52,364 bases of DNA from NCBI RefSeq assembly GCF_018139625.1, contig NZ_JAGSOH010000042.1, positions 1 through 52,364 of the forward strand, read 5' to 3'. The notes under the pieces were generated by a model, which saw only the letters and a list, made by a program, of their open reading frames with translations, was not told the DNA's origin and did no database searches. This DNA comes from Actinospica acidithermotolerans. GTDB lineage: Bacteria; Actinomycetota; Actinomycetes; Streptomycetales; Catenulisporaceae. The position numbers and the translations under genes are program-made. This document shows positions 5,607 to 22,858 of this stretch, piece by piece; position 1 is the stretch's first letter, and every line of letters starts with the position of its first letter.

Positions 5607-6092
5607 GTGACGGCGACAAGGATCGACTACTTCGACGACCCGACCGCCCCCGCAGCCACCAGCATGGTCCCGTCCGTCAACGTCGTCGTCGCCGACGATG
5701 CCGGACGGATCCTGCTCATCCGCCGCACCGACAACGGCAACTGGGCCGTGCCCGGCGGCGCGATCGACCTCGGCGAATCCATGATCGACGCCGCGGTCCG
5801 CGAGACACGCGAAGAAAGCGGTATCGACTGCCAGATCACCGGCCTTATCGGCATCTACACCGATCCACGCCACCTGATCCACTACACGAGCAACGACGAG
5901 GTGCGTCAAGAGTTCTCCATCGTGCTCTCGGCCCGCCCCGTCGGCGGCGAGCCAGCCACGAGCAGCGAATCGAGCGAGGTGCAGTGGACCGAACTGCATC
6001 AACTGCCCGGACTCCAAATGGACCGCTCGATGCGTCTGCGCCTGGCCCAATACGAGATCTACCTGGCCTCCGGCGGCCAACATCTCGGATAA
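5607..6092 (+). CDS. NUDIX hydrolase
   Basis: GTG 5607 is preceded by AGGGAG at a good distance, giving 161 residues. The complete NUDIX box runs GGAIDLGESMIDAAVRETRE followed by ESGI, about residues 52-75, with the REXXEE catalytic glutamates present. Family members hydrolyse nucleoside-diphosphate-linked compounds to a phosphate plus the X moiety. Near-identical architecture occurs in many stand-alone actinomycete NUDIX enzymes with unknown substrates. It is a single gene between intergenic stretches, although a second NUDIX gene and an inositol-monophosphatase remnant lie close downstream. Confidence 0.9.
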   Translation: MTATRIDYFDDPTAPAATSMVPSVNVVVADDAGRILLIRRTDNGNWAVPGGAIDLGESMIDAAVRETREESGIDCQITGLIGIYTDPRHLIHYTSNDEVRQEFSIVLSARPVGGEPATSSESSEVQWTELHQLPGLQMDRSMRLRLAQYEIYLASGGQHLG

Positions 6093-8018: not shown

Positions 8019-8090
8019 CCGGCTACCCGCCGCACCGATCGTATGGAACGCTGGATCGGTGGCGATCCTCGAGCGCGAAGGCGGGTGGCC

Positions 8091-8636
8091 GTGTCGCTGA
8101 TCGACGACCTTCTGGCCGAGGGTGAGCCGGAGCGCGAGTTCAATCCGGGGATCGCCGCGCGGCTACCGCGCAAACGAGTCGCCGCCGGCGCGCTCTTCCG
8201 CGATACCGACGGCCGGCTGTTGATGGTGGAGACAACCTACAAACCGACGCTGGAGATCCCCGGCGGGCTCGCCGAGAACGGTGAGTCGCCCTACGACGCG
8301 TGCACGCGGGAGGTACGCGAGGAACTCGGCATCGAGCCTGCGATCGGCGACCTGCTGGTGGCGGACTGGGTTCCGGCGCACGGACCGTGGCCCGACGGGC
8401 TGATGCTCGTCTTCGACGGCGGGATCCTGCCCGAAGAGCACCAGTCGCGCATCGAACTCCGGGACGGGGAGATCTCGGCCTGCTGGTTCCTGACGCTTGA
8501 ACAGATCGAACCGCGGGTCAAGCCCTCGTTCCACCGGCGCCTCGCGGCATGCGTCCAAGCGGTCAAAGCAGGCCATCCGCAGTATCTACAATTCGGTCGC
8601 CCCCTCGCCGGCCATTCCTCCTCGTCGCGGCTGTAA
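8091..8636 (+). CDS. NUDIX hydrolase
   Basis: I prefer GTG 8091 (MSLIDDLLAEGE...), which matches the usual start of this NUDIX subgroup; ATG 8043 is an in-frame alternative. The 181-residue product carries RLPRKRVAAGALFRD, then the NUDIX box GGLAENGESPYDACTREVRE followed by ELGIE with all catalytic glutamates. A glycine-rich strand and a C-terminal helix follow. The substrate is unknown. It lies 72 bases after the IMPase remnant on the same strand, so the two may once have shared a transcript. Confidence 0.88.
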   Translation: MSLIDDLLAEGEPEREFNPGIAARLPRKRVAAGALFRDTDGRLLMVETTYKPTLEIPGGLAENGESPYDACTREVREELGIEPAIGDLLVADWVPAHGPWPDGLMLVFDGGILPEEHQSRIELRDGEISACWFLTLEQIEPRVKPSFHRRLAACVQAVKAGHPQYLQFGRPLAGHSSSSRL

Positions 8637-10662: not shown

Positions 10663-11589
10663 CTAGGGCGCGGAACTGCTGTTGACGGATTCGACTCTCA
10701 GCGGCGGTCGGCCCACGACTACCGTGGGGCGCATGCGGGCAGCGCTCTTCGCGCCGAGCCAGTGCGTGTGTGCGGCGCGACGGGCCATGAGCGCCGCGCG
10801 AACCTCGCTGGAAAGCGCCGCAAGCGCAACTCCTCGCTGGCCGCGTTGCACCGCCGATTCGCGGGCATTCCCCCAGGCGAGGGCGGTGAAATGCCAGCTT
10901 AGCCGCCTGAGCGTCCGGTGGTCGGCCCAGGGCGGCGCTGCTCTGCCGAGTTCTCGGAGGCGAGTGGCGATCTCCAGATTGACGCCCTGAAGGTAGTCCT
11001 GGAAGACACCGGGGTTGGCACGGTCCGTCATGTTTGCATCGTGAACGCGGTAGTACGTCAGCGGCTCGGTGACCTTCGCGCCGTAGCCGAGGTAGTCGAA
11101 GACGTGGAAGAACGCCTCGTTGCTGACTGGGAGAAGGTCCAGCGCGGGCTCTCGTCTAACCAGGAGTGTGCTGGTGTTGCCGCCTGGATGGGGCTTCGTC
11201 AGTAGCGGCCGTTCGTTAGCGTCAACGACGTGTTCCCAGTGCTGGACGAGAAAACGGTCGTCGGTGAGCGCCGGCGCGATAGCGGCGAGCTTGTCCGTAG
11301 TGAACGAGTCGTCGGCGTCGAGCGGCGCAATCCACTGCCCGCGTGCAGCGCGGAGCGCTGAGCTCAGGACGGCGCCGAATCCCTCGTGCGGGCGCCGCAG
11401 GACGGTGATCTTGCCACCGTAACGCTCGCAGACCTCCAGGGACTCGTCCGTCGAGCCGTCGTCGATCACGAGGACTTCCTTAAGCAGGTAGTCGCCGGGC
11501 CGCTGGTCCAAAGCGCTATCGATCGCGTGGGCCAGGTATCTCCCGTAGTTGTAATTCAGTATGCATATGCTGATGGAGGGCAACGCCAC
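10663..11589 (-). CDS. family 2 glycosyltransferase
   Basis: A 308-residue GT-A enzyme. Its start ISICILNYNYGRYLAHAIDS, the nucleotide site VLVIDDGSTDES (about residues 40-51) and the metal-binding DADDSF (about 93-98) are classic GT2 motifs, and a helical tail follows. It transfers a sugar from a nucleotide sugar to an unidentified acceptor in the cytoplasm. It is the last gene of a leftward series (radical SAM, HAD, glycosyltransferase, methyltransferase, GT2), only 3 bases after the methyltransferase gene, so it is almost certainly co-transcribed. Confidence 0.9.
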   Translation of the reverse strand: MALPSISICILNYNYGRYLAHAIDSALDQRPGDYLLKEVLVIDDGSTDESLEVCERYGGKITVLRRPHEGFGAVLSSALRAARGQWIAPLDADDSFTTDKLAAIAPALTDDRFLVQHWEHVVDANERPLLTKPHPGGNTSTLLVRREPALDLLPVSNEAFFHVFDYLGYGAKVTEPLTYYRVHDANMTDRANPGVFQDYLQGVNLEIATRLRELGRAAPPWADHRTLRRLSWHFTALAWGNARESAVQRGQRGVALAALSSEVRAALMARRAAHTHWLGAKSAARMRPTVVVGRPPLRVESVNSSSAP

Positions 11590-11592
11590 GGT

Positions 11593-12279
11593 TCACCAGC
11601 CTGAGGGGATGACCGTGACCAGTTGCGTGGTAAGTCCGCCGCCGCCGTCGTCGCTTCGGGTGAGTTGGTGGTCCAGGATCTCGAAAGACTGCATCGCGAG
11701 AAACGTGGCGAACTCGCGGCTCGTCCATTCGCGGATGTGCGCCGGGTTTCTGGGCTCCCCGATGTAGCCCGCTCCTGCCCGATGCTCGCGCGCGGGCGTT
11801 GAAAGCACGATCTGGCAGCCCCCGGCGCGGGCCATCGCAGCCATGAGTGCGAGCGCGTTATCAGGCCTGACCAGGTGTTCGAGAACGTCACAGCACACGA
11901 TGACTGATCTGGCGAGCTGGTCTGCGGGAATGGCCAGTTCCTGTTGCGTCTCAAGGTCGGCTTCGATCCATCGCCCGAAGGTGTGGTTGGCGGAGCACCA
12001 CTGGATGTTGGGCCCGAAGTCGACCCCGGTAAAGTTCCACGTCGGTTCCACTTCGGCGAGGGCCGCGAGTTTTGCGGCGCGCCCGCAGCCGATGTCGATG
12101 ATGCTGTTGCGCCCCTGCTGGCGGGCGAGGTCGGCCGCATACGGGTAGACGTCGGGCTGCCAGGTCACCCCATCGTCGACGTCGTCGAAGTACTCGGGGC
12201 GGGCGCGCTGGCGATAGTCGGAGGGTAGACCGAAGTGCTGCGGTGCGATCGAGTCGCTGCCGTTGAGGTCGGTGTTCAT
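11593..12279 (-). CDS. SAM-dependent methyltransferase
   Basis: 228 residues. Motif I is SIIDIGCGRAAKLAALAE (about residues 58-75), the strand-2 acidic residue lies in FTGVDFGPN, and motif IV is VCCDVLEHLVRPDNAL, as in UbiE/Coq-type methyltransferases. The N-terminal segment with YFDDVDDGVTWQPDVYPYAA resembles methyltransferases found beside glycosyltransferases in polysaccharide or glycan clusters. A GAAGGA ribosome site precedes ATG 12279. It lies between the GT4-like and GT2 genes and probably methylates an intermediate of the same pathway. Confidence 0.85.
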   Translation of the reverse strand: MNTDLNGSDSIAPQHFGLPSDYRQRARPEYFDDVDDGVTWQPDVYPYAADLARQQGRNSIIDIGCGRAAKLAALAEVEPTWNFTGVDFGPNIQWCSANHTFGRWIEADLETQQELAIPADQLARSVIVCCDVLEHLVRPDNALALMAAMARAGGCQIVLSTPAREHRAGAGYIGEPRNPAHIREWTSREFATFLAMQSFEILDHQLTRSDDGGGGLTTQLVTVIPSGW

Positions 12280-12370
12280 CTTCCTTCTTCATCTTCGGCG
12301 GGGCGGTCAGTGGAGCATTCCCTTGGTGGCCGGCTTTGCGCTGGTCATCGGTTCGATGGGTTGCTGCACG

Positions 12371-13438
12371 TCACTGGGCATAGATCTCGGCGTGGGCCGC
12401 GAGGAAGTCGCGGTGCTCTTCGCGTCGGTAGTCGAGGAAGTCGGGGTCCGGGTCCTTCCGCGGGCCGTGGACGAGGCGGGGGTGGGCGGTTTCGAGGGCC
12501 GCGACGAACTTCTCGCCGAACAGGAAGGGATGCCCCTCCGCCCAGTCGAACCAGATGGGGTCGTTCACCAGTCCACGGTGCTTTCGGTGCTGTTCCTTGA
12601 GGAAGCCGACCGACGAGCAGACGGGCGTGAGGTTCAGGTCGAAGGCGAGTTCGAGTTGACCGGAGTGGCTTCCGAAGAGGTAAGGCAGGAGCAGCGCGTC
12701 GGCCTGGATGCCGGCATCGACGATCTCGCCATCAGAAGGGTAAGCGCGCATGGCCGTGTGAATGCGCGGATCGGACTTCGTGATCGCAAGCAGGGCGGAT
12801 ACGTCGTGTCGCTCGAAGTCTGCGGGACTGAGCGCGCGCAGCAGGATACTGAGACGGGCGTCAGAATCGGTGATGCTCAGGCTCCAGTTGGCAATCGTCG
12901 CAAGGTGATCGCGATTCCGGCGCAGGGCGCCGTAGAGCAGGTAATGAGGCGCGAAGTCCCCGCGGGTGCGTACCTTCCCTGCCACCTCGTCCGGGGGGAC
13001 CACGTACCCGTGGGGTATGACCGTGACTGGCGGGAGGCCGCACAATTGGTCGCCCAGCGCGGATACCGAACCAGCGGTCAGGCCGATCCATGCGACCTTG
13101 GCGGAGGCGAGCAGGGCGAGGCGGGCGCCGAAGTCTTCGGCGGTGCAGAACATCGGGGTCACATCGTGTGCGGTGTACACCACTCGCACTGCCGAGTCGG
13201 CACACGCCGCCAGCAGCCGTTCGAGGACTGGGAGGTCGTCGAACTCCACGTGGTGCAGGTGCAGGACATCGAACCAGTCCAGCGGCCGACGGTCCAAGAG
13301 CCATTGCGCGGTGACCGCGTCCGGGACCACGCCGTGTGCGGTGCCGACACCGTTGAGTATGGAGAACTCCGGCGAAACGATCTTGCGGACGTACGGGGTG
13401 CGCGCTGGCAGGTGCACGACGCGCAGCGCCGGGCTCAC
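12371..13438 (-). CDS. GT4-like glycosyltransferase
   Basis: I chose GTG 13438 because it overlaps the HAD stop in a GTGA junction; ATG 13471 is an in-frame alternative. The 355-residue product shows a GT-B layout: FDVLHLHHVEF (about residues 54-64), VVYTAHDVTPMF, the linker VTVIPHGYV, and a C-terminal donor-site region with ADALLLPYLFGSHSGQLELAFDLN, where the conserved E of GT4 enzymes would sit. It likely adds a second sugar in the pathway served by the adjacent GT2. Donor and acceptor are unknown. Confidence 0.75.
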   Translation of the reverse strand: MSPALRVVHLPARTPYVRKIVSPEFSILNGVGTAHGVVPDAVTAQWLLDRRPLDWFDVLHLHHVEFDDLPVLERLLAACADSAVRVVYTAHDVTPMFCTAEDFGARLALLASAKVAWIGLTAGSVSALGDQLCGLPPVTVIPHGYVVPPDEVAGKVRTRGDFAPHYLLYGALRRNRDHLATIANWSLSITDSDARLSILLRALSPADFERHDVSALLAITKSDPRIHTAMRAYPSDGEIVDAGIQADALLLPYLFGSHSGQLELAFDLNLTPVCSSVGFLKEQHRKHRGLVNDPIWFDWAEGHPFLFGEKFVAALETAHPRLVHGPRKDPDPDFLDYRREEHRDFLAAHAEIYAQ

Positions 13439-13899
13439 CTGTGCATCCAGGTCGCGTGATGCACCGGCCATCCGGCAGCCTGTAAGGTCGCGACCACTTC
13501 GTCATCGTCGTCCACGATGAGTCCTATCTCGTTGTCGGCTGCTATTTGGCCGATGCGTTCGGCTTTGAATATCGCGGCGGGTCGCATGTCGCCGTCCGGC
13601 CGCATGTCCAACGGTTTGGGTGGCAGGCCCTGACCACGCAGCCATTCGTCTGTGATCCCTCTGTACAGATCCGGTCTTCCGGTCAACCACATCATGGGGC
13701 CGGTCGCTGCCAGTTCCAGGGCAAAGGCGATACCTTCGGGCAGCGGTTCATCCGAGCCGGATGCGGCGAAGAATGCCGCCCAATCCGGCTCGGGCCTGTC
13801 GAGGTAGACCTGTCGTGGGCGAGAGTCGGAGACCGTGCCGTCGATGTCGACGATTGCCAGCCCGGTGCGTTTCGCGAGCAAGGCGGCTCCGCTCGTCAC
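13435..13899 (-). CDS. HAD-superfamily phosphatase
   Basis: A 154-residue protein with HAD motif I AIVDIDGTVSD (about residues 15-25), motif II in MMWLTGRPD (threonine near 77), and motif III/IV in LIVDDDDEVV near residue 129. This compact form resembles polynucleotide-kinase-type and small-molecule HAD phosphatases without a large cap. ATG 13899 overlaps the radical SAM stop (ATGA) and its own stop overlaps the glycosyltransferase start (GTGA), so translation of the three is coupled. Codon 139 is a TTA leucine codon. Confidence 0.82.
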   Translation of the reverse strand: MTSGAALLAKRTGLAIVDIDGTVSDSRPRQVYLDRPEPDWAAFFAASGSDEPLPEGIAFALELAATGPMMWLTGRPDLYRGITDEWLRGQGLPPKPLDMRPDGDMRPAAIFKAERIGQIAADNEIGLIVDDDDEVVATLQAAGWPVHHATWMHR

Positions 13900-14834
13900 T
13901 GGGTGTCCCCGGAGTGGTAGGGCGCGCTGCGCAGACTCAGCGCCCGGCGCACGAGCGGGGCGAACCCGTCGGCCAGTGCGTTGCCCAGAACGTCGTTGCG
14001 TGGGGCGGCGACGCTGCCGAGGTCCACGGTCACGGTGCCGTCGGCCAGCACCCAGACGCGGAACGGATAGGCGTCGGCCGGTGCGCGGGTCGGCTGGTCG
14101 AACACCGCGATCTGGCCCATGCGTTCGCGGATGGAGTCCACGGCGGCGCTGAAGTCCTCCGGGGTGAAGCCGTACAGGGCAGCTTTGCGGGCGTCTGCGC
14201 GGCCGATCGGGCGGTACTGCGAGATCAGCCAGTACTCCACGGGTGTGCGCGACGCCACATCTAAAATCATCGTGGCGATTCGGTCCAGCTCGTTGATGCT
14301 TGTTGAGGAGGTGAACGTGTTGAACGCGACCGTGCGCCGTTCGGACTCCAGGAGGGCGATGTTGTCAGTGAAGGTTGCGAAGTACCCGTCACCGCGGAAC
14401 CAGTCTGCTGTGGCGGCGTCGGGGCCGTCGATGGCCAAGGAGTAGACATCGACCCACTCTCGGATCCGCCCGTAGCGCTCGCGCAGCAGCAGGCCGTTCG
14501 TGTGGACGTTGATCTCAAAGCCCAGTTCGGACGCATGGCGCAGGGCGACTTCGAGATGGTTGTCGTAGGGCATGAGCGGGTCGCCACCGGTGAACACCAT
14601 CCTGCGGGCAGCCGACTCATGCGCAATCACATCCAGCACGCGGGTCACGGTTTCGGCGTTGGTCGCAACGCGGTTGCGCTCCCGGTAGCAGAACCGGCAT
14701 ACGCCTGGTGAGCCTGGGGTCGGGTTCATGCTCCAGGCGTTGCAGTCGGTGTTCAGGATGACGTGCACGATCGGGAGTTCGGGCTCGGTGAGCGGGCCCT
14801 CCCCTCGCACTGTTTGCCGTTGCATCACATCCAC
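13896..14834 (-). CDS. radical SAM enzyme with CX14CX2C motif
   Basis: 312 residues. The three cluster cysteines are C31, C46 and C49, in TDCNAWS and GVCRFCYRE, giving a CX14CX2C motif instead of the standard CX3CX2C. The rest of the half-barrel is normal: a GGDPLM SAM-binding segment near residue 78, then EINVHTNGL and YSLAIDGPD. I see no further cysteines, so no SPASM/auxiliary cluster. CX14CX2C is known from some QueE proteins (7-carboxy-7-deazaguanine synthases), but overall length and motifs differ from QueE. Start is GTG 14834 or ATG 14825; a TAG lies just upstream. Codon 191 is TTA. First gene of the leftward operon. Confidence 0.85.
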   Translation of the reverse strand: MDVMQRQTVRGEGPLTEPELPIVHVILNTDCNAWSMNPTPGSPGVCRFCYRERNRVATNAETVTRVLDVIAHESAARRMVFTGGDPLMPYDNHLEVALRHASELGFEINVHTNGLLLRERYGRIREWVDVYSLAIDGPDAATADWFRGDGYFATFTDNIALLESERRTVAFNTFTSSTSINELDRIATMILDVASRTPVEYWLISQYRPIGRADARKAALYGFTPEDFSAAVDSIRERMGQIAVFDQPTRAPADAYPFRVWVLADGTVTVDLGSVAAPRNDVLGNALADGFAPLVRRALSLRSAPYHSGDTQ

Positions 14835-15033
14835 AAGCTAGGGCGGGGCGACCGGCTGCCGTCAGAGCACTGTGACCCCTCACGGTGCTGGCTCCCGAGC
14901 GAGTGCGCCCTCCTTGGCGCCGGTGTGCGCGGGTGCGCCCCGGTCACGGTGAGCGTTCGCAGTGGTCTGGTTCCGTATATGCGCGGTGAGCGAGGCTGAT
15001 CGGAATCGTTGAGCGAGCGACGAAGGGGAAGCG
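14835..15033. promoter_or_regulatory. divergent promoter region of the two operons
   Basis: This is the only sizeable gap between the leftward radical SAM operon and the rightward synthetase-like operon, so both promoters should lie here. A ribosome site AAGGGGA stands before ATG 15034; none is clear before the radical SAM start. No unambiguous -35/-10 boxes or operator were identified. Confidence 0.5.
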
Positions 15034-16110
15034 ATGATGACGGCCGCGCGCGATTCAACCCGGGACGACCCCATGTCCACCAGCACGGTACCGGTGATCT
15101 TTTCGGAGGAGTACTACCGCGACGTAGTCCGCGAGTTCGGCTACGACTCGTTCGAGCTGGAGCAGTTCGCGTTCGCCGCGGCCGGCATGGAGGCCGCGGA
15201 ACTCAATGCCCGGTTTCTCTGCCACCGCCGCTGCGACGCCTACCTCAAGGCGCCGGCGGCGTCGAGGATCGTCACCACCGGGTTTGGGATGTCCGGCCCC
15301 CCTCACATGGGGACGGTCGCCCAGGTTCTCGCGATCAGCCGTCTCCAGGCGGCCGGAGAGCGCTGTCAGATCGTGCTCGGCGATCTCGACGCGCACAACG
15401 GCAAGGGGAGGGCACTCGGCGAGACTGCTGAGCTGGCGGAACGCTTCGAGGGGTTCTGCCGCGCGCTGGGCTTTGACGGGGAGGCTGGCGTTATTCGCCG
15501 CCAGTACGCGGAGGCCGAGGTGCTGCGAAACCAGTACCTGCTGAGCCACTACATCTCGGATGGCGACTTCACAGCCGCCGAGGAGGACAACCACGGCTAC
15601 TACGCCTCGTTGGGGATCGTTGAGAAGGAGATGACCTTCCGCCGCAAGGCGTCGCTGGTGTTGATGGCTGCCGACTTCGTGACCCTCGGGCAGCGCTTCG
15701 ACGCGGTCCTCGTCATGCTGGGCATCGACGAGCACCAGTACGTCCGCTTCGCCCGCGAGGTGGCGTCGCGGCTGGACGGGCACACCATCTTGCGCTCGGA
15801 CTTCACCCTCTCGTCCCTCTACACGAGACTGGCACGTGGATTCGGTGGGCATCCCAAGATGTCCAAGAGCATCCCGGGCTCCTCGATCAGCGTGGCCTCA
15901 AGCCGGCAGGAGATCGCCGATCTGATCGCGTCGGACGCTGCCTCCACGCCCGACACCTCGCCCAGCTACCAGCTGATGTGCCAGCTGTTTCGATACTCGT
16001 ACGAAGAGACGATCGAGCTGGTCCACGAGTGCGCTGGCGCCACGGCGCGGTGGAAGAGGGCCAAGCGCGACTTGGTCGAGTATCTGACTGCGGTGGTGGA
16101 ACAGTGGTGA
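15034..16110 (+). CDS. TrpRS/TyrRS-like class I aminoacyl-tRNA synthetase paralogue
   Basis: 358 residues from ATG 15034 (AAGGGGA site); internal ATG 15073 is also possible. The Rossmann core carries a HIGH-type motif in TTGFGMSGPPHMGT (about 81-94) and an intact KMSKS at 275-279. The segment LGIDEHQYVRFAREVA matches the GIDQ-type loop of archaeal/eukaryal-style TrpRS/TyrRS. I see no clear anticodon-binding extension beyond a short helical tail. It could charge a tRNA, or activate an amino acid and pass it to a small molecule, as the CysRS paralogue MshC does in mycothiol synthesis. It is coupled by GTGA to the next gene. Confidence 0.8.
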   Translation: MMTAARDSTRDDPMSTSTVPVIFSEEYYRDVVREFGYDSFELEQFAFAAAGMEAAELNARFLCHRRCDAYLKAPAASRIVTTGFGMSGPPHMGTVAQVLAISRLQAAGERCQIVLGDLDAHNGKGRALGETAELAERFEGFCRALGFDGEAGVIRRQYAEAEVLRNQYLLSHYISDGDFTAAEEDNHGYYASLGIVEKEMTFRRKASLVLMAADFVTLGQRFDAVLVMLGIDEHQYVRFAREVASRLDGHTILRSDFTLSSLYTRLARGFGGHPKMSKSIPGSSISVASSRQEIADLIASDAASTPDTSPSYQLMCQLFRYSYEETIELVHECAGATARWKRAKRDLVEYLTAVVEQW

Positions 16111-17258
16111 CCCCGGGAGAGCCCGTGTTGGCGGATCTGATCGGATCCATACCGTCGCAGGAGGCCACTCCGCATTTCGGCGCGTTCCTGCACCGGCTCA
16201 ACGCCGGGCAGAACCTGACCTACACCGAGGCCCGCGCCTACATGACGAAGGTGCTGGCCATCGCGGACCCCCGCCAGCGCAGCGCACAGCTGGCCGTGCT
16301 GCTCAACGGCATCATGGCCAAGCATCCGACCATCGACGAGGCCACTGGGGTCATCGACGCCGCGTTCGACCTGGATCTGCGGCGGCCCGCCGACAGGCCG
16401 GAGCACCCATTCACCGGAGAGAAGGTCGTCGCAGTCGCCGGGAGCGGCAAGAAGGGCCTCAAGACGCCCAACATCTCCACTCCGGCGGCGATCGTCGCGG
16501 CGGCGGCCGGGATCAAGGTCGCCAAGTGCGCCTCCAGCGCCACATCCTCGGCCGCCGGGTCTGCAGACACCCTCAAGAACCTCGGCGTCCATCTGACCTC
16601 GGAGGTTCCGCGAACCCTGGACGTCATGGCCAGCTGCAATCTGGGCGTGTTCGAGATTGAGCAGATGATCCCCCGGTTCGATGCGGCCTACGGCGGGCTC
16701 TTCTTCGCTCCCCACGTGCTGTCCCTGGGCTTCCCCGCGTTGCTGCTGCCGATCAAGACGGACAATCTGCTTTACGGCATCGCGCACCCGGATGTGGACC
16801 TGTCCGTGGAAGTCCTGCGCCGCTACCATGCCGGTGACATGCTGGTGGTCTCGTCAACGCCGGACAATATCCGCTGGATCGACGAGGTCGGCATCATCGG
16901 GGAAACCTCCGTCGTCGGGGTCCGAGGAGGGCAGCGGGGCCAGACCCGTCGCCTGGCCATGGCCGAGATCCTTGGCGTGGGCCCGTACCGCACCGCTGAG
17001 ATAGCGGCGCACGGGACAGCTACGGACCAGGCCCGCACTGTGGTCGACATTCTCGCGGGTCGCTCCACCCGTGCGCTGGCCGACATGGTCGCCGTGAACG
17101 CGGCAACGCTGATCTTCCTGGGGTCGACCACGCTGACGGTGCCCGCGGCCTTCGAGATCGCCTGCGAAGCTCTCACCAGCGGAGCGGCCTTGAACACGCT
17201 GACCCAGCTGGTTCAGCGCAGCGGCGGAGACCGCGGCGCCCTCGGAAGGTGGCTGTGA
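16107..17258 (+). CDS. TrpD-like phosphoribosyltransferase paralogue
   Basis: I take GTG 16107, which overlaps the previous stop; 383 residues. The N-terminal helical domain (LTYTEARAYMTKVL...) and the core match anthranilate phosphoribosyltransferase: PNISTPAAIVAAAAGIKVAK (121-140), then SS..GSAD.L and a PHVLSLGF segment. The phosphate loop, normally GTGGDG in TrpD, reads GSGKKG (112-117). So the fold is TrpD/nucleoside-phosphorylase, but the substrate is probably not anthranilate. No other trp genes are nearby. It may make or break an N- or C-glycosidic bond to a ribose phosphate in this pathway. Confidence 0.82.
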   Translation: MTPGEPVLADLIGSIPSQEATPHFGAFLHRLNAGQNLTYTEARAYMTKVLAIADPRQRSAQLAVLLNGIMAKHPTIDEATGVIDAAFDLDLRRPADRPEHPFTGEKVVAVAGSGKKGLKTPNISTPAAIVAAAAGIKVAKCASSATSSAAGSADTLKNLGVHLTSEVPRTLDVMASCNLGVFEIEQMIPRFDAAYGGLFFAPHVLSLGFPALLLPIKTDNLLYGIAHPDVDLSVEVLRRYHAGDMLVVSSTPDNIRWIDEVGIIGETSVVGVRGGQRGQTRRLAMAEILGVGPYRTAEIAAHGTATDQARTVVDILAGRSTRALADMVAVNAATLIFLGSTTLTVPAAFEIACEALTSGAALNTLTQLVQRSGGDRGALGRWL

Positions 17259-18166
17259 CCACGCCGCAGTCCCTCCGCGTCGTCGCGGTCGGGGTATGCG
17301 GGTCCGACACGACGCGGCGGCGTGCTGGCTACGCCGTCGCGTCGCTCGGGCACGAGATCGTCGGACACACCCTCGACGGTACGCGCGCCGCAGTGCGGCC
17401 CCTGAACCCATGCCGCACCTGTCCGATGTGCCGGCGAGGATGGACCGAGCAGTGCCCGGCCGACCGCAGCATCGGGCGGCACGATGACGGCACCGGGGGC
17501 TTTAGCGGCACCGTGAGCGCATACCCCGATCAGATCTACGCCGTCCCCGGCCACGTCTCCACACCCGTGGCTACCCTGGCCGACCCACTCGCGTGCATCC
17601 TGCACGCACTCCACGGCTTGCCCGTGAGCGCCGCGAACGTGCTGGTCATCGGGGACGGCCCGATGGCGGCACTCTCCGCCACCGTCGCCCGGAGCACCGG
17701 TGCGAGGCACGTAACCGTGTCCGTGAAGTCCCGCGACCGCGCCTCCCGGCTCGCCGCCTTCGGCAACAGCGTCGTCACGGCCCGAGATCTGCCCGCGAAC
17801 CACTACGATGTCGTAGTGGAGTCGGCAGGAGGCGTAAGCAGTGAACCGATATTAGTAGCGGCGAGAGCCGTCGCACCCCTGGGCCATGTAGTCGCTCTCG
17901 GTGTGTACGCCCAGCAGACCACCGCCGACATTCCCGTGCGCGCACTCCTGGAAAAGGAGTCGATGCTGCGCGGCAGCAAGGCGTACCGGGCCGGTCCTGA
18001 CCGGGACGATTTCGCCTCGGCGCTGTCCCTGCTGGCTGCCGCGCCAGGCGATTTCGAGCCGATCATCAGTTCCACTCCCCGCTGGTCTCTCGACGATCCC
18101 AGACCGCCCGCGATCGAGCGCGGCAGCGGCTTGAAGACCGTCTACGTCACCGACCGGCGCGACTGA
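17255..18166 (+). CDS. compact zinc-dependent MDR dehydrogenase
   Basis: GTG 17255 overlaps the TrpD-like stop (GTGA); 303 residues, shorter than the usual ~340. The catalytic zinc ligands appear as VGVCGSD and LGHEIVG. The structural zinc lobe is PCRTCPMCRRGWTEQC, four cysteines about residues 50-65. The NAD(P) Rossmann motif is VLVIGDGPMAALSA (about 129-142), with the second G of GXGXXG altered. The N-terminus lacks the first strands typical of the GroES-like domain, which could mean a specialised, compact enzyme. Codon 200 (17852-17854) is TTA, in a run of codons rare in this window. It would oxidise or reduce an alcohol/carbonyl of the pathway intermediate. Confidence 0.83.
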   Translation: MTTPQSLRVVAVGVCGSDTTRRRAGYAVASLGHEIVGHTLDGTRAAVRPLNPCRTCPMCRRGWTEQCPADRSIGRHDDGTGGFSGTVSAYPDQIYAVPGHVSTPVATLADPLACILHALHGLPVSAANVLVIGDGPMAALSATVARSTGARHVTVSVKSRDRASRLAAFGNSVVTARDLPANHYDVVVESAGGVSSEPILVAARAVAPLGHVVALGVYAQQTTADIPVRALLEKESMLRGSKAYRAGPDRDDFASALSLLAAAPGDFEPIISSTPRWSLDDPRPPAIERGSGLKTVYVTDRRD

Positions 18167-18194
18167 CGACCTCCACAGCTGAAAAGGAGCACCC

Positions 18195-19622
18195 ATGCTT
18201 AACGCCAGCACGCGGCTCGGCGCGTCTTCCGAGGCGCTCATGAAGATCCTTCGCACCGCGCCCGACCTGCGCACCGGCCCGGACCTGCGCGCGATCCTCG
18301 AAATCCTGGCCGAGCGGCGAGCGATGGACCTCTCGGACCTCACACCGGCCGAGCAGGCCGAGCTGATCGCCGCGCGCACCGCCCAACTGCTTCCCTCCGT
18401 TCCGCAGCTGGCCGAAGCCCTCCAGGCCGCAGGCGACGAGGGACGCCAGCTGATCGTCAAGTTCGGCATCGACCCGACGGCCGCCGATGTACACGTGGGC
18501 CACGCCGTACCGATGATCATCGCGAGCCGGTTCCAGCGCATGGGACACCGTGTCGTGTTCATCATCGGCGACATCACGGCGAAGATCGGAGACCCGACCG
18601 GGCGCACTGCCGACCGACCGCCGCTTACTGACGAGGACATTCAGCACAACCTCGCGACCTACCGGCAGCAGGTCACCCCCTTCTTCGACTTCGAGCGGGC
18701 CGACTTCCGCTTCAACAGCGAATGGCTCGCGCCGATCACCCTGCCGCAGTTCATCGGCGTGCTGGAGAAGCTGCCGCTGTCGGTGTCCCTCCAGCGAGAA
18801 GACTTCCGCACCCGCCTGGCCGAAGGCAGCGGGTTGTCCATGGCAGAGCTCGTCTACTCCGTCGTCATGGCCCTGGACTCGGTGGAGATCACCGCAGACA
18901 TCGAACTCGGCGGCCTCGACCAGTTGCTGAACATGCAGATGTGCCGCCGCGTGATGGAGAACAGCGGCCAGAAGGCCGAGATCATCATCGCCACCGGCCT
19001 CATCGAGGGGACCGACGGCACCGGCGCGAAGATGAGCAAGAGCAAGGGCAACTACGTCGGTCTGGCCTTCGAGCCCAAGGACGTGTTCGGCAAGCTCATG
19101 TCCGCCGCCGACCGCCTGCTGCCCGACTACCTGCGCACGCTGACTGAACTGCTTGACCCCGAGATCGAGCTATTGCTAGAGCTGATGGCCAGCCGCGAGC
19201 TGCACCCGATGGGCGTCAAGACCCTCCTGGCCGCCGAGATGACCAGCACCATCCACGGCCTCGACGCCGCCGAAGAAGCCCGAGCAGGCTTCACTGCCCA
19301 ATTCTCCCAGAAGCGCTACTCTGACACCCCGGACGTGCCCCAGATCGACGTCAGCGAGCACGGCACCTCGACCGTCGGCGAGTTGTTCGTCAAGGTCGCT
19401 GGCCTCGTGCCGAGCCAGAACCAGCTGCGGCGCACTGCCAGCGGGGGCGGGCTGCGTCTAGTGAGCGAGACGCCGGACGGCGGGCAGGAAACCGTCACGT
19501 TGACCGAGGCGGACGCGAACACGGCCGCGGCCGAGGTCTTCGCCGCCAACTCCTCGGTCGTCGAGCGCGATGGCGCTCGAAACTTCCTGCGCTGCGGCCG
19601 GGCCCTGATCGAGCTTCGCTAG
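18195..19622 (+). CDS. tyrS: tyrosyl-tRNA synthetase
   Basis: 475 residues from ATG 18195 with an AAAAGGAG site. An N-terminal extension of about 45 residues precedes the class I core: KFGIDPTAADVHVGH (HIGH motif 100-103), FIIGDITAKIGDPTGR, tyrosine-pocket region ADIELGGLDQ (235-243) and KMSKS (279-283). The C-terminal S4-like RNA-binding domain is present (about 400-475). This is a bacterial TyrRS of the longer TyrZ-like type. Its position inside an accessory operon suggests a second copy, either a supplier of Tyr-tRNA to the pathway or a resistant version protecting the host from a tyrosine-like product. Confidence 0.9.
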   Translation: MLNASTRLGASSEALMKILRTAPDLRTGPDLRAILEILAERRAMDLSDLTPAEQAELIAARTAQLLPSVPQLAEALQAAGDEGRQLIVKFGIDPTAADVHVGHAVPMIIASRFQRMGHRVVFIIGDITAKIGDPTGRTADRPPLTDEDIQHNLATYRQQVTPFFDFERADFRFNSEWLAPITLPQFIGVLEKLPLSVSLQREDFRTRLAEGSGLSMAELVYSVVMALDSVEITADIELGGLDQLLNMQMCRRVMENSGQKAEIIIATGLIEGTDGTGAKMSKSKGNYVGLAFEPKDVFGKLMSAADRLLPDYLRTLTELLDPEIELLLELMASRELHPMGVKTLLAAEMTSTIHGLDAAEEARAGFTAQFSQKRYSDTPDVPQIDVSEHGTSTVGELFVKVAGLVPSQNQLRRTASGGGLRLVSETPDGGQETVTLTEADANTAAAEVFAANSSVVERDGARNFLRCGRALIELR

Positions 19623-19651
19623 AGAACTCCCAGGCACAAGGAAGGCGTCGC

Positions 19652-20386
19652 ATGCCCCCCACCATCAGCTACGCGGTCTCCGACGAGGTCTTCGAGCGCT
19701 TCCCGGGCTACCGGCGTGGCGTCGTGATCGCGCGCGGTCTGCGCAACGGGCCGGCCGCCCCCGAACTCCTCGCTGAGCTTCGCGCCGAGGAGGAGCGACT
19801 GCACAAGGAACTCGACGCGGCCACGATCGCTCAGCACCCGCGGATCGAACCGTGGCGCGACGCCTTCCGCGCCTTCGGCTCCAAGCCCTCCGACTTCCGG
19901 CCCTCGGTTGAGGCGCTGGCCCGGCGGGCAGCCCGAGGCGATCAGCTGCCTTCCGTCAGCTCGCTGGTGGATCTCGGCACGCTCGCCTGTCTGCACAATC
20001 TCATGCCCATCGGCGCCCACTCGCTCGACGAGGTCACCGGGGATATCGAGCTCCGTATCGCTTCCGGCCGAGAGCACTTCACTGCCTTCGGCTCCACCGA
20101 ATCGGAGACCCCGAGGCCCGGCGAGGTCATCCTCGCCGAAGGCGACACCGTGCTCACCCGCCGGTGGGCATGGCGGCAGGCCAACCACACGCTGGTCGTG
20201 GACGCCACACGAGTCGCTGTCATAAACGTCGACGCCTTGAGCGCCGTCCCTGACGACGATCTCGCGGGCGCCATGGCCCAGGTGCTCGACTTGCTGCGCC
20301 GATTCTGCGGCGGCACCGCCGAATCCACAGTGCTCACCTCCTCAGATCCGTCAGTGCGCATCGACCTATCGCGTGCTCACGAGTGA
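19652..20386 (+). CDS. B3/4-domain protein (PheRS beta editing-type domain)
   Basis: 244 residues, 29 bases after TyrRS, with AAGGAAGG before ATG 19652. It shows the stand-alone B3/4 pattern: PWRDAFRAFGSKPSDFRPSVEALARR (about 70-95), PSVSSLVDLGTLACLHNLMPIGAHSLD, and a late GEVILAEGDTVLTRRWAWRQA block. In PheRS beta this domain removes wrongly attached tyrosine from tRNA-Phe. Free-standing copies are widespread, mostly with unproven function. The pairing with a TyrRS suggests trans-editing of an aminoacyl-tRNA or hydrolysis of an aminoacyl ester in the pathway. Confidence 0.87.
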   Translation: MPPTISYAVSDEVFERFPGYRRGVVIARGLRNGPAAPELLAELRAEEERLHKELDAATIAQHPRIEPWRDAFRAFGSKPSDFRPSVEALARRAARGDQLPSVSSLVDLGTLACLHNLMPIGAHSLDEVTGDIELRIASGREHFTAFGSTESETPRPGEVILAEGDTVLTRRWAWRQANHTLVVDATRVAVINVDALSAVPDDDLAGAMAQVLDLLRRFCGGTAESTVLTSSDPSVRIDLSRAHE

Positions 20387-20487
20387 CCGCCGGATCATCG
20401 ACGGCTGCCTGTGTGAAAGGGTTCGACTATACACGGAGCGCGCCGATAGGATTACCCCAGTCAACCAGCCTAGCCACGGGGGGGCCT

Positions 20488-21543
20488 TTGATCGCGAGGC
20501 AATCCGTCGATCCGGCCTGGTGGGACCACGAGCAGGTCAACGGTGTCGGCATGCGGCAGATCCTGGCTGATCGCGATATCGGCACTGTGTTCAAGTTTCT
20601 GCACAATCGTGGTTGGAGCTGGGCGGCGATAGCTCAGGCAACTGATATTGGCGAGCAGCGCATCCGCGAGATCGCCAATGGCAGGCGGCGGATCGAGAAC
20701 TACGACGTGTACGTGCGTATCGCCAGCGGCCTCCAGATTCCCCGCGACTACCTGGGCGTCGGCCTCAGACCGCTCACTCAGCCAGCATCTGCCGCCTTCG
20801 CGCCCGCCGTCGTTCCACAAACGCAGGCCGCGGAGTTCACCGCATCCTTGCGCGGCGCTTTCGGACTCGCCGAGAAGCCTGGCGCTGAGGACGACGCGCA
20901 GCCAGAGAGTGAGCTGTTCGAGTCACAGATCATGCAGGCTTGGCTCGACCGACGCGCAGTCGGCCACCGGGGCACCAATCTCGTCCTGGTCGCGGGATTC
21001 GCCGGTTCGGGCAAGACCGAATTCGCCCGGTTCCTGAGCGCGATCACCAGTTGGGCCCTGCTGGACAAGGACGTACTGACCCGCCCGCTCGTCGAGAGCA
21101 TGCTGACCTCGATGGGGGGCGACCCCAACGACCGCCACACCGAGCTCTACCGGACCGAAGTCCGACCGGTTGAGTACCGATGCCTGATCAATGCCACGTT
21201 CGCGAACATCGACAACGGCGTATCCACAGTGGTAACCGCTCCCTTCCTTGCCGAAGTCGCGGACATCCACTGGCTGCGCTGGCTCCTTCACCGATGCGCC
21301 GAGTCGGACGTACATCTCGAAGTCGTCTGGGTCGGCGCCGACACCGACACCATGCACACGTACATCCACAGGCGGGACGCCGCACGCGACAGCTGGAAAC
21401 TCAACCGCTGGGACGAATACCTCGGTTCCATCGACCTGGCGCTGCGCCCTCAGATACCGCACTTCTACGTCGACAACTCGCTCAACGCTGCCGTCAAGCT
21501 CGCCGACGAAGCGTGCGCAGTGTCCGAACGGATCGGCCGATGA
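20488..21543 (+). CDS. HTH-P-loop kinase fusion
   Basis: I favour TTG 20488 because a GGGGGGG ribosome site stands just upstream and the product then starts like related HTH proteins. GTG 20383, overlapping the B3/4 stop, is the alternative. Residues 1-90 form an XRE-type DNA-binding domain (RDIGTVFKFLHNRGWSWAAI, GEQRIREIANGRRRI). After a linker, a P-loop kinase domain begins with GFAGSGKTE (170-178) and continues with an AAA_33/zeta-toxin-like layout. The combination suggests either a regulator sensing ATP and a metabolite or a DNA-tethered small-molecule kinase. It is coupled to the next gene by ATGA. Confidence 0.78.
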   Translation: MIARQSVDPAWWDHEQVNGVGMRQILADRDIGTVFKFLHNRGWSWAAIAQATDIGEQRIREIANGRRRIENYDVYVRIASGLQIPRDYLGVGLRPLTQPASAAFAPAVVPQTQAAEFTASLRGAFGLAEKPGAEDDAQPESELFESQIMQAWLDRRAVGHRGTNLVLVAGFAGSGKTEFARFLSAITSWALLDKDVLTRPLVESMLTSMGGDPNDRHTELYRTEVRPVEYRCLINATFANIDNGVSTVVTAPFLAEVADIHWLRWLLHRCAESDVHLEVVWVGADTDTMHTYIHRRDAARDSWKLNRWDEYLGSIDLALRPQIPHFYVDNSLNAAVKLADEACAVSERIGR

Positions 21544-22118
21544 ATACGGGCATCATCCTCTACGGGCCCCCTGCATCGGGCAAGGACACCGTCGCCCAAG
21601 CGCTCCATCAGCTCAGCTCCAGCTACATGCAGTTCCAACGCCTGAAGGTCGGACCTGGCCGGACCACCGGATACAGGATGGCCACACCAGCGCAGCTCGA
21701 CGCTCTACGGGCCTCTGACCAGGTCCTCTATGAGAACGAGCGCTACGAGGCCACCTACGTGGTCGACCGATCCCACCTCACCGGCCTACTATCGGCTGGC
21801 ACCATCCCCGTCATCCACCTCGGACAGATCGCCGGCATCCATGCAGTAAGGCGCTACCCGATTCGGTGGATCACCGTACTTCTCTGGTGCTCCAGGCCCA
21901 CCACTGCCGACCGTCTTCGGAACCGCGGCGCCAGCGACCTCGATGTCCGCCTCGGTGTTTGGGACGAGACGCTTGCCGACCTCGGACAAGCCTCGGACAC
22001 CGACTTCTCCCACCGCATCGACACCGAGCTCATCCGCCCGGACGAAGCCGCGACCGTCATCAACGCACTCGTCGCCGCGGCGCCGGATCAGACTCAACCT
22101 CAGAGGAGTCCGCTGTGA
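21540..22118 (+). CDS. guanylate-kinase-like P-loop kinase
   Basis: 192 residues from ATG 21540, overlapping the previous stop. The Walker A motif is GPPASGKDT (9-17). The following RLKVGPGRTTGYRMA segment and the YENERYEATYVVDR block echo the GMP-binding part of guanylate kinases (where TTRxxR and ExxxxxGxxYG occur). A lid region RPTTADRLRNRGASD contains arginines. It probably phosphorylates a nucleotide or small molecule; the acceptor is not deducible. Its stop overlaps the start of the DapA-like gene. Confidence 0.75.
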   Translation: MNTGIILYGPPASGKDTVAQALHQLSSSYMQFQRLKVGPGRTTGYRMATPAQLDALRASDQVLYENERYEATYVVDRSHLTGLLSAGTIPVIHLGQIAGIHAVRRYPIRWITVLLWCSRPTTADRLRNRGASDLDVRLGVWDETLADLGQASDTDFSHRIDTELIRPDEAATVINALVAAAPDQTQPQRSPL

Positions 22119-22858
22119 CGGCCGCCGAATTCGCCATCGTCGTTCCCGCGCTGCACCTTTCGACAGCGAGCGGCGACGTCGACCTCCAGCTGACGCGCCG
22201 CTACGCCGAGAGGGCGGCATCCACATGGGTAGACCGGTTCATCGTCTCTGGCTCGACGACACGCGGTGACCGTCTTACCTGCGAACAGCGGGCCGATCTG
22301 CTCGACCTGTGGCTCGAAGTCACCACCCCGGATCGGCTCCTAGCGTGCAGCTGGGTACCCGAAGACCTCGAAGCCGCAGCAGCGCGGCACATCGCGCCGA
22401 TGGGCGTCATGCGCGGCCTCGACGATCCGGCCGCCGCGCTCGAATACCTCCAGAATCTGCCGGACGGAGCGTTCGTCTACTCCCACCCCATGTACGGTAA
22501 GGCCGTTTTCGACTCCACCCTCGCCGCCACTGCGCGCGACGCTGACGCTCTGCCGCGCGGCGGCAAGCTAGCCAAGATCGCCCCCGATGAGATCGCGTAT
22601 GTTCGCCGAGAGGCGGGTAGAGCATTCGACCTCTGGGACGGTTCCTCCAGAAGGATTGAGGCATCAGTGCGCTCGGGCGCTTCCGGCGTTGTGGCAACCC
22701 CGCTCTGCGCGTTCGACACCGAACTCCCGGATCGGCAGAGCGACGCACTCCAACGATTCGTCGACCCCATCCAAGACTCCCTGGACCAGCTCCCCGACCG
22801 CGCAGCCAGAAGCCACGAGCTTCTAACCCGAGCATGCGCCGCGCTATCCATCACTTAG
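22115..22858 (+). CDS. DapA-family (dihydrodipicolinate synthase-like) aldolase
   Basis: GTG 22115 follows GAGGAG and overlaps the kinase stop; 247 residues against about 290 for the family. The pattern is that of a class I TIM-barrel aldolase: FIVSGSTTRGDRLT in place of the GTTGE loop, a YSHPMYG segment with Y122 in the catalytic-tyrosine position, and GGKLAKI with K151 as the likely Schiff-base lysine. The C-terminal helices are shortened. It would form or cleave a C-C bond using an alpha-keto acid such as pyruvate. Last gene of the rightward series, so it belongs to the same pathway. Confidence 0.78.
   Translation: MTAAEFAIVVPALHLSTASGDVDLQLTRRYAERAASTWVDRFIVSGSTTRGDRLTCEQRADLLDLWLEVTTPDRLLACSWVPEDLEAAAARHIAPMGVMRGLDDPAAALEYLQNLPDGAFVYSHPMYGKAVFDSTLAATARDADALPRGGKLAKIAPDEIAYVRREAGRAFDLWDGSSRRIEASVRSGASGVVATPLCAFDTELPDRQSDALQRFVDPIQDSLDQLPDRAARSHELLTRACAALSIT

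Follow-up and report, generated by a model that had tools for sequence, protein, structure and literature searches.

The window (the whole analysed stretch of 52,364 nucleotides) carries thirteen genes between 10663 and 22858, with the following features (aaRS, aminoacyl-tRNA synthetase; TyrRS, tyrosyl-tRNA synthetase):

10663..11589, minus strand: GT2-family glycosyltransferase; core, in most clusters (PF00535, E=4e-27)
11593..12279, minus strand: SAM-dependent methyltransferase; core, in most clusters (PF13489, E=3.4e-10)
12371..13438, minus strand: GT-B/GT4-like glycosyltransferase, GTa; core (predicted structure)
13435..13899, minus strand: HAD phosphatase of the PNKP type (PF25109, E=1.6e-8)
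13896..14834, minus strand: radical SAM enzyme with a CX14CX2C motif; optional member (PF04055, E=4.7e-14)
14835..15033, no strand: divergent intergenic region, sequence inspected; presumed site of both promoters
15034..16110, plus strand: class Ic aaRS paralogue (aaRSp), proposed aminoacyl ligase or transferase; core (PF00579, E=3.1e-16)
16107..17258, plus strand: TrpD (anthranilate phosphoribosyltransferase) paralogue with GSGKK in place of GTGGD; core (PF00591, E=3.6e-24)
17249..18166, plus strand: zinc-type medium-chain dehydrogenase, L-idonate/threonine dehydrogenase-like; core (PF08240, E=1.6e-7)
18195..19622, plus strand: TyrRS2, full-length second tyrosyl-tRNA synthetase with an active-site Gln to Met change at residue 225; core (TIGR00234)
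19652..20386, plus strand: B3/4-domain protein, possible editing hydrolase, outside the conserved core (PF03483, E=1.1e-19)
20383..22858, plus strand: separate module of three genes that recurs independently in other genomes, made up of the next three entries
20383-21543, plus strand: HTH-kinase, a P-loop kinase with an HTH (Pfam)
21540-22118, plus strand: small kinase, a P-loop kinase (Pfam)
22115-22858, plus strand: 'DapA-like' protein, as named in the original prediction

All thirteen ORFs of the original prediction exist (10663-22858); they form two divergent series with 199 bp between them. Its family calls were matched in Pfam for the GT2, methyltransferase, HAD, radical SAM (the CX14CX2C motif being C31-x14-C46-x2-C49), TrpD-like, zinc-type dehydrogenase and B3/4 proteins; its aaRS paralogue and TyrRS appear there as two class Ic tRNA-synthetase-type proteins, and its HTH-kinase fusion and small kinase as two P-loop kinases, one with an HTH. 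Both glycosyltransferases it had named were recovered, one by Pfam (GT2) and the second, which has no Pfam glycosyltransferase match, by predicted structure (GT-B/GT4-like). The 'DapA-like' call for 22115-22858 was not confirmed: this protein has no Pfam family at E<=0.05, and its best PDB match has E=0.24. With the start codons judged most likely (GTG 13438 for GTa, GTG 16107 for the TrpD paralogue, ATG 21540 for the small kinase and GTG 22115 for the last gene), 6 of the 11 same-strand junctions are 4-base overlaps; a seventh arises if the dehydrogenase starts at GTG 17255 rather than 17249, and the remaining four junctions are gaps of 3, 91, 28 and 29 bases. GTa was listed as ORF 12371-13471, and it is the GTG at 13438 that gives the 4-base overlap with the HAD gene. 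With longest-ORF starts the 4-base overlaps fall to 2/11, so the count varies with the chosen starts. tRNA and RNA-family scans of the whole window were empty, and Pfam named no transporter among the thirteen genes. TTA codons were dropped as a sign of developmental control (3/9 core genes versus 5/29 other mechanically called window genes, not distinctive).

A shared gene order in other actinomycete genomes had been proposed as a check, and its outcome is largely positive: nine of the thirteen genes (10663-19622) do recur as one cluster, though their order differs between genomes. The cluster is found in Saccharopolyspora, Amycolatopsis, Streptomyces, Actinophytocola, Frankia and others. Nine loci are complete (the window, L006, L007, L008, L010, L011, L013, L014 and L022), with content kept and order shuffled, and partial or decayed copies are seen in L005, L009, L012 and L015. 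Constant in the nine complete loci are the TrpD paralogue, the GT-B glycosyltransferase, the class Ic aaRS paralogue, the zinc-type dehydrogenase, a HAD phosphatase and the second TyrRS, to which 8/9 add the methyltransferase and GT2. Of the joint pathway first claimed, the aaRS paralogue, TrpD paralogue, dehydrogenase, TyrRS, glycosyltransferase(s) and methyltransferase are conserved together, and the radical SAM enzyme accompanies them in some genomes only. GT2 is present in 9/12 other aaRSp loci, truncated or split in three of these (L008, L012, L015), and also in L099; relatives of the methyltransferase (50-55% identity) are found in L006, L007, L008 and L010-L014, with a fragment in L015. 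The HAD phosphatase occurs in 9/9 complete clusters as two types, the window having the PNKP type (for which no PDB sequence relative was found) and other clusters a PF00702 HAD, so that the former is probably a stand-in for the latter. This conserved set of eight or nine genes is rare and found in several groups of soil actinomycetes. Among 394 genomes of the class, aaRSp is present in 3; GTa (E<1e-150) is found in 4, all with TyrRS2 and including 3 with aaRSp, while 34 further genomes have only remote GTa matches. Plasmid records searched with the aaRS paralogue gave no match. The set is apparently new to description: a literature search, beyond whose reach most subscription papers lay, found no published account of it.

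The four genes downstream of TyrRS2 behave differently. Relatives of the B3/4 protein are found in 35/197 genomes (the window's own included), core genes lie near them in 0/29 loci from other genomes (flanks of about 1.5 kb), and none occurs in the 15 related loci mapped. Of 19 loci examined in other genomes, 11 have the HTH-kinase next to the small kinase, 3 of these with the 'DapA-like' gene as well; the search for core genes around the 19 (flanks of about 1.5 kb) gave one weak, generic dehydrogenase match and nothing else. These three genes are a module distinct from the core. The original prediction had taken all thirteen genes, including the B3/4, kinase and 'DapA-like' genes, as one pathway, and the tight overlaps do continue to 22858 given likely start codons; with the kinases (11/19 loci) and the 'DapA-like' gene (3) recurring away from the core, and B3/4 in 0/15 related loci, we regard a single thirteen-gene system as very improbable. 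As a whole, the original prediction is partly supported.

Within the core, aaRSp scores below curated cut-offs for the known enzymes (trpS, 52.7 bits versus a cut-off of 176.75; PRK08560 TyrRS, 42.9 versus 220). Its predicted fold aligns with archaeal TrpRS 3a04 (Z 25.9, 315 aligned residues, rmsd 3.4, 20% identity) in the best of five models, whose pLDDT is 77.3 (range 48.8-77.3), and is class Ic across the catalytic and C-terminal region. HxxT and K(M/F)SKS motifs are common to 11/11 aaRSp sequences of alignment A1, which omits L009 and L016, both short, and L022, found later. At E<=0.01, tRNA-synt_1b is its sole Pfam family, with no cyclodipeptide synthase family. The TrpD paralogue matches PDB TrpD structures and likewise falls below the NCBIfam trpD cut-off (141 versus 199.05 bits); GSGKK replaces the diphosphate-binding GTGGD in 10/10 paralogues of alignment A3, which omits L005 and L009 (fragment without the TrpD paralogue) and L011 (disturbed reading frame).

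GTa has no PDB sequence relative (best E 0.25). Its AlphaFold model (pLDDT 85.5) matches GlgM, MshA, BshA and SenB, with Foldseek giving GlgM (E 9.3e-11, TMq 0.61), MshA (E 1.3e-10, TMq 0.40) and 2jjm_A (TMq 0.66) at rmsd 5.4-11.7 over the matches, and the modelled fold is GT-B, related to GT4 enzymes. GT4-type GT-B glycosyltransferases bind the donor through an EX7E motif; judged by eye in alignment A2 (which omits the decayed L012 and L015), an equivalent of the second Glu (E273, A2 numbering) is all of this motif that is invariant in GTa. Two glycosyltransferases and a methyltransferase could also serve a cell-surface glycan or lipid aminoacylation system with a non-diffusible product, tRNA-dependent lipid aminoacylation being known. 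We consider this improbable: membrane transferase, flippase and polymerase families stay below cut-off (Pfam on the thirteen genes, NCBIfam on ten), and the gene set is distributed narrowly and patchily, with decayed copies, as biosynthetic clusters typically are.

The radical SAM gene is intact in the window, L007 and L022 (relatives 62-63% identical), broken in L008 and missing from 5/9 complete clusters. Its co-occurrence with aaRSp and the TrpD paralogue, put forward earlier as a test, stands for these three intact loci, and the enzyme is optional elsewhere; it is found in 2/394 class genomes, both also with aaRSp. The Pfam scan found no SPASM domain. L009 (a fragment) and L099 (a relic) have the GTa subtype associated with the radical SAM enzyme but lack that enzyme. 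Identity as viperin was rejected (38.8 bits, far off the NCBIfam cut-off of 180). The aaRS-like and B3/4 genes, the HTH-kinase and a radical SAM enzyme weakly similar to pVip (E=2.2e-12) might suggest an anti-phage or stress-response island directed at tRNA(Tyr). However, PADLOC matched only 2 of the 10 proteins scanned, both partially (the radical SAM enzyme to pVip, the methyltransferase to mad2), the viperin score is the low one just given, and such an island offers no evident role for the glycosyltransferases, the dehydrogenase or the methyltransferase. We rate it as very unlikely, and a defence system was dropped on those two partial matches.

The best clue to the function of the cluster is the second TyrRS copy with its changed active site, both of which the original prediction missed while correctly naming a TyrRS. 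TyrRS2 passes the curated cut-off (TIGR00234, 252 versus 113.8 bits), carries HVGH and KMSKS motifs, and is a second copy, as the window's genome encodes another TyrRS elsewhere. Both forms are present in 8/11 other genomes holding the aaRS paralogue; in the L014 genome TyrRS2 was recovered and the other TyrRS was not found, so that TyrRS2 may be its sole TyrRS, or the other copy may lie outside the MAG. The Gln of YxxxQxxD is the usual active-site residue in TyrRS. By motif comparison, Met replaces it in the window and all cluster TyrRS2 (11/11) and in the relic loci (3/3), while Gln is kept in 17/17 TyrRS of other types (Met in 0/17), i.e. rows less than 45% identical to the window TyrRS2, some of which are perhaps not housekeeping enzymes. 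Met is not unique to producers, since orphan TyrRS2 have Met in 9/15 and Gln in 6/15 cases, 'orphan' meaning that the fetched stretch yielded no core gene (L106 and L111 lie on contigs of less than 8 kb). TyrRS2 forms one clade (99/99) in a tree that omits 3/47 rows (two TyrRS of low identity, L034 and the short L044, as well as L035, whose coordinates are those of the TyrRS2 gene of L011); the window branch is long (0.77) and its finer placement unsure.

TyrRS2 is spread wider than the cluster: at E<1e-140 it is found in 20/394 class genomes, only 3 of which have the aaRS paralogue. The relic loci L016, L098 and L099 have lost most biosynthetic genes and retained TyrRS2; the otherwise decayed L012 has a full-length aaRS paralogue without TyrRS2. 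These distributions bear on whether TyrRS2 merely supplies Tyr-tRNA (or a tRNA-borne tyrosine analogue) to a pathway whose product spares TyrRS. Such supply would suit aaRSp, which requires an activated amino acid, much as AcmD provides Ala-tRNA for AcmF, and Gln to Met might widen amino acid specificity instead of giving resistance. Yet in relics TyrRS2 stands alone or is the last core gene still intact, and it also occurs in genomes without aaRSp; because it persists there resistance or another role fits better than supply alone, which we consider unlikely.

From the conserved gene set, the second TyrRS, its altered residue and the predicted folds, we infer that 10663-19622 is probably, with modest confidence, a biosynthetic cluster for a small metabolite, glycosylated (nucleoside- or aminoglycoside-like) and amino-acid-bearing, that interferes with TyrRS, TyrRS2 being the self-resistance enzyme. 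Several observations weigh against this reading: TyrRS2 is distributed more widely than the cluster and Met also occurs in orphans, Pfam named no transporter, most complete clusters lack an intact radical SAM gene, L012 has aaRSp without TyrRS2, and TyrRS2 may be the sole TyrRS of the L014 genome. The earlier suggestion of an activated aromatic amino acid joined to a sugar-derived part, glycosylated and methylated, is plausible. In the proposed route, the TrpD paralogue would handle a phosphosugar donor and the HAD phosphatase would remove the phosphate; the zinc-type dehydrogenase, plus the radical SAM enzyme in some clusters, would remodel the sugar, and GTa, GT2 and the methyltransferase would decorate it. 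aaRSp would attach the aminoacyl group, drawing either on an adenylate of its own, in the manner of MshC, or on Tyr-tRNA, as AcmF/SbzA do. TyrRS2 (Gln to Met) would go on charging tRNA(Tyr) despite the product, and may also supply Tyr-tRNA to the pathway. More tentatively, at somewhat short of even chances, the product could be an actinomycete antibiotic of a new class, a glycosylated, phosphosugar-derived aminoacyl compound assembled by aaRSp that traps or mimics tyrosyl-adenylate in TyrRS, with the Gln to Met TyrRS as a resistance gene that has also spread alone through other actinomycete families.

An altered TyrRS inside a conserved cluster points to a natural TyrRS inhibitor; the resistance gene would flag candidate producers and the likely target, and orphan TyrRS2 genes are a possible natural resistance reservoir. 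With aaRSp, the recruited aaRS-like enzymes (AlaRS-like AcmF, IleRS-like SbzA, class Ic-like cyclodipeptide synthases) would gain a class Ic synthetase paralogue that bears ATP motifs, and the TrpD paralogue with its rewritten donor site would be a further addition. In the literature covered, part of which consisted of partial texts, no class Ic aaRS paralogue with retained ATP motifs is described as assembling a small molecule.

Several known systems resemble parts of the cluster. In mycothiol synthesis, MshC is an aaRS paralogue, derived from CysRS (class Ia), that acts as an amino acid-sugar ligase. Common to this pathway and the cluster are an aaRS paralogue and a GT-B glycosyltransferase (MshA being among the matches of the GTa model), but aaRSp is class Ic and is accompanied by a second TyrRS. 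The TrpD paralogue matches the TrpD profile over its whole length and retains the DE pair and the NxST motif, and differs from TrpD in its GSGKK and its score under the NCBIfam cut-off. The tyrosine analogue SB-219383 comes from Micromonospora. This compound targets TyrRS (PMC7916415, available part); the literature search, in the texts it could reach, brought up neither a gene cluster for it nor a link to the present genes. In the ascamycin acm cluster, as given in the available part of the source, AcmD is a resistant second AlaRS and AcmF a truncated AlaRS-like transferase (PMC12945691). The window genome and most relatives similarly have an extra full-length aaRS (TyrRS2) in the cluster beside another copy, together with an aaRS-like paralogue, as in acm/sbz-type clusters; in acm this pair serves to place an aminoacyl group onto a small molecule (PMC12945691, available part), a role that is proposed by analogy here. 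acm differs in its AlaRS relatives and its sulfamate chemistry (PMC4257720, available part), whereas the present cluster has class Ic TyrRS/TrpRS relatives, a TrpD paralogue, a GT-B enzyme and a GT2. No sulfur-related families (sulfamate/sulfonamide assembly) were named among the thirteen genes by Pfam, or by NCBIfam on ten, within the limited reach of these scans, and identity with the nucleocidin/ascamycin clusters was dropped: as far as the available texts go, their products are sulfamates, and acm has genes of the AlaRS type. SbzA of the SB-203207/SB-203208 (sbz) cluster is, in the portions of the sources available, a class I tRNA-synthetase-like protein with slightly modified HIGH and KMSKS motifs, another IleRS being encoded elsewhere in the genome (PMC6331615), and a full-length IleRS relative termed both self-resistance protein and transferase (PMC12945691); one protein thus has both roles there, compared with two separate proteins here. 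Finally, cyclodipeptide synthases have a Rossmann fold like the catalytic domains of TyrRS/TrpRS and serve natural-product synthesis (PMC12945691, available part), but aaRSp differs from them in matching tRNA-synt_1b and retaining KMSKS-like ATP motifs.

The 13 open reading frames that the original prediction joined in one pathway are present in the window as two divergent series separated by 199 bp, one with a glycosyltransferase (GT2), a methyltransferase (MT), a second glycosyltransferase (GTa), a HAD phosphatase and a radical SAM enzyme, and the other with a class Ic aminoacyl-tRNA synthetase paralogue (aaRSp), a TrpD paralogue (TrpD'), a zinc-type dehydrogenase (ADH), a tyrosyl-tRNA synthetase (TyrRS2), a B3/4 protein, an HTH-kinase, a small kinase and a 'DapA-like' gene. 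The predicted families agree with Pfam and NCBIfam apart from three corrections: GTa, which has no Pfam glycosyltransferase match, is a glycosyltransferase as judged from its predicted GT-B fold; the label 'DapA-like' found no confirmation; and the most likely start of TrpD' is 16107. Scanning the window for RNA genes gave none. Two NUDIX-domain genes (5397-6092 and 8043-8636) lie close to the left side of the cluster, and a comparison of 12 loci turned up no relatives of either.

When genomes from 84,980 species were scanned, aaRSp relatives appeared at 12 loci (including L016, where aaRSp is a remnant only), and a class-wide search added a further, divergent locus, L022 (genome G237). When 15 related loci (L-numbers denote loci in other genomes) were mapped with the window genes and nine from L007, a single gene set emerged in varying order:

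L007: GTa and radical SAM, divergent from TrpD', MT, GT2, aaRSp, TyrRS2, HAD, ADH
L008: as L007, except for a broken radical SAM gene and a split GT2 match
L010, L011, L013, L014: TrpD', MT, GTa, GT2, aaRSp, TyrRS2, HAD, ADH
L006: TrpD', MT, GTa, GT2, HAD, ADH, aaRSp, TyrRS2
L022: HAD, ADH, TrpD', radical SAM, aaRSp, GTa, TyrRS2
L005, L009: contig fragments; the aaRSp match in L009 stops at residue 278 of 358
L012, L015: decayed
L016: TyrRS2 kept, with a 20% remnant of aaRSp

The original prediction proposed looking for the same gene order across genomes; the order differs between loci but the gene content is kept, which is strong evidence that the core genes function jointly.

Some loci have further features. 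Amycolatopsis rhizosphaerae carries two separate cluster copies (L010 and L011) in one genome. The L005 fragment is filed under a Melainabacteria bin, probably through a binning error; its aaRSp and TyrRS2 are 85–89% identical to those of Saccharopolyspora, and its HAD and ADH 68–73%. In L006 (Streptomyces sp. H27-S2), a carbamoyltransferase gene (12515-14203), a natural-product-type tailoring gene, directly follows TyrRS2, and a short stretch resembling its sequence follows TyrRS2 in L016. L022 has a seryl-tRNA synthetase gene after TyrRS2 (13322-14611) and a lantibiotic dehydratase C-terminal-domain gene upstream (567-1505), possibly a second synthetase-linked pathway adjoining the cluster.

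Among 394 genomes sampled from the class (draws of the same size, with genomes recurring across the gene searches), aaRSp was found in three and a close GTa (E<1e-150) in four, including all three with aaRSp; 34 further genomes gave remote GTa matches only (E 1e-15 to 4e-28). With the window's genome excluded, which leaves 393, the chance that 2 aaRSp genomes both fall within a set of 3 GTa genomes is ~4e-5. The radical SAM enzyme was found in two genomes, both among the three with aaRSp, and the fourth GTa genome (G136) has GTa-GT2-TyrRS2 only. Sequences from G237, G136 and G174 (Frankia) are in at least one query alignment, which affects sensitivity and not the sharing of genomes by genes.

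HTH-kinase relatives occur in 21 of 197 class genomes (the window's own included). Among 19 of the other-genome loci, the small kinase adjoins this gene in 11 (L138-L148), with the 'DapA-like' gene next in three of these (L143, L144 and L146). Within flanks of ~1.5 kb, too short for a missing neighbour to prove absence, the 19 loci showed no core gene except a weak generic dehydrogenase match (L156, E=4e-5). Relatives of the B3/4 protein occur in 35 of 197 class genomes; 29 other-genome loci showed no core gene within ~1.5 kb, and the protein is found in none of the 15 related cluster loci. Because of these neighbourhoods we divide the 13 genes into a core of nine, the B3/4 gene and a distinct three-gene module. 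The HTH-kinase and small kinase (with the 'DapA-like' gene in some loci; 20383-22858 in the window) form an actinomycete module conserved on its own.

aaRSp is well conserved (79% mean column identity, n=11), and the window's copy scores far under the TrpRS and TyrRS cut-offs. Its structural model (pLDDT 77.3 for the best one) aligns with class Ic synthetases along almost the entire length, with Z 25.9 for archaeal TrpRS and up to 23.0 for TyrRS entries. All 11 sequences retain the (K)(M/F)SKS motif and the first HIGH His (the last HIGH position is Thr), so aaRSp likely uses ATP. With the register set by eye, the Met211/Asp214 pair resembles what we take to be the TrpRS MxxD motif, and Ser207 and Glu233 occupy positions that presumably hold the amino group in TrpRS and TyrRS. 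aaRSp differs in its ATP motifs from AcmF, which reportedly lacks most ATP-binding residues (PMC12945691).

The window's genome contains another TyrRS (29% identity). In a search of 12 genomes, 11 of which hold aaRSp, TyrRS2 (54–57% identity to the window's) and another TyrRS form (30–36%) were found together in 8 of these 11; the L009 and L012 genomes have no TyrRS2, and the L014 genome has TyrRS2 only. The L016 genome, with its remnant aaRSp, has both forms. When all TyrRS were aligned, the motif YxxxQxxD read YSVVMALDS in the window's TyrRS2. Its Gln, presumably a contact of the substrate's amino group, is Met in all 11 cluster TyrRS2 (window, L005-L008, L010, L011, L013-L015 and L022) and in all three relic loci (L016, L098 and L099), and is present in 17/17 TyrRS of <45% identity; in the PDB alignments, the three best-matching relatives of solved structure have Gln where the window's TyrRS2 has this Met. 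Orphan TyrRS2, with no core gene in the stretch fetched, have Met in 9/15 and Gln in 6/15.

In the TyrRS tree, TyrRS2 forms a single group (99/99), within which the cluster and relic copies group with seven orphans of the family of G174 (94/80), and the six Gln orphans and two Met orphans (L100 and L102), all from the window's order, fall outside; the long window branch makes finer placement unsure. A role of TyrRS2 as a resistance gene fits, because the relics drop the biosynthetic genes yet retain TyrRS2; however, the orphans show that TyrRS2 also occurs without the cluster. L100 and L102, where the 19 kb retrieved contained no core gene, may be resistance genes that lack a producer cluster.

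Some of the other core genes may act on a sugar part. TrpD' keeps NxST and the DE pair, and since GSGKK replaces GTGGD in 10/10 aligned sequences, its substrate may be a phosphosugar different from Mg-PRPP. A HAD phosphatase is found in 9/9 complete clusters, of two types (PNKP-like in the window, PF00702 in the others), which suggests that dephosphorylation is required and that the enzyme was swapped. The radical SAM enzyme is seen only with one GTa subtype (53–55% identity to the window's GTa for L007, L008 and L022), and GTa of L006, L010, L011, L013 and L014, all without radical SAM, are 37–41% identical. This pairing hints that the sugar handled by GTa is altered by the radical SAM enzyme; the same subtype is also found in L009 (65%) and L099 (54%), where the available stretch lacks a radical SAM gene.

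We consider it rather probable that the core is a biosynthetic gene cluster whose product, a glycosylated aminoacyl metabolite, acts on TyrRS. In this reading TyrRS2 would provide self-resistance and possibly also Tyr-tRNA, and aaRSp would serve as an aminoacyl ligase or transferase. In literature that included few subscription papers, and so is not proof, we found no description of the cluster and no TyrRS self-resistance in a biosynthetic cluster. Membership in the acm or sbz clusters was rejected, as neither sulfamate nor sulfonamide genes were observed. GTa resembles MshA in predicted structure, and we take MshA/MshC to be among the closest working analogues. The others are AcmD/AcmF (PMC12945691) and SbzA (PMC12945691, PMC6331615).
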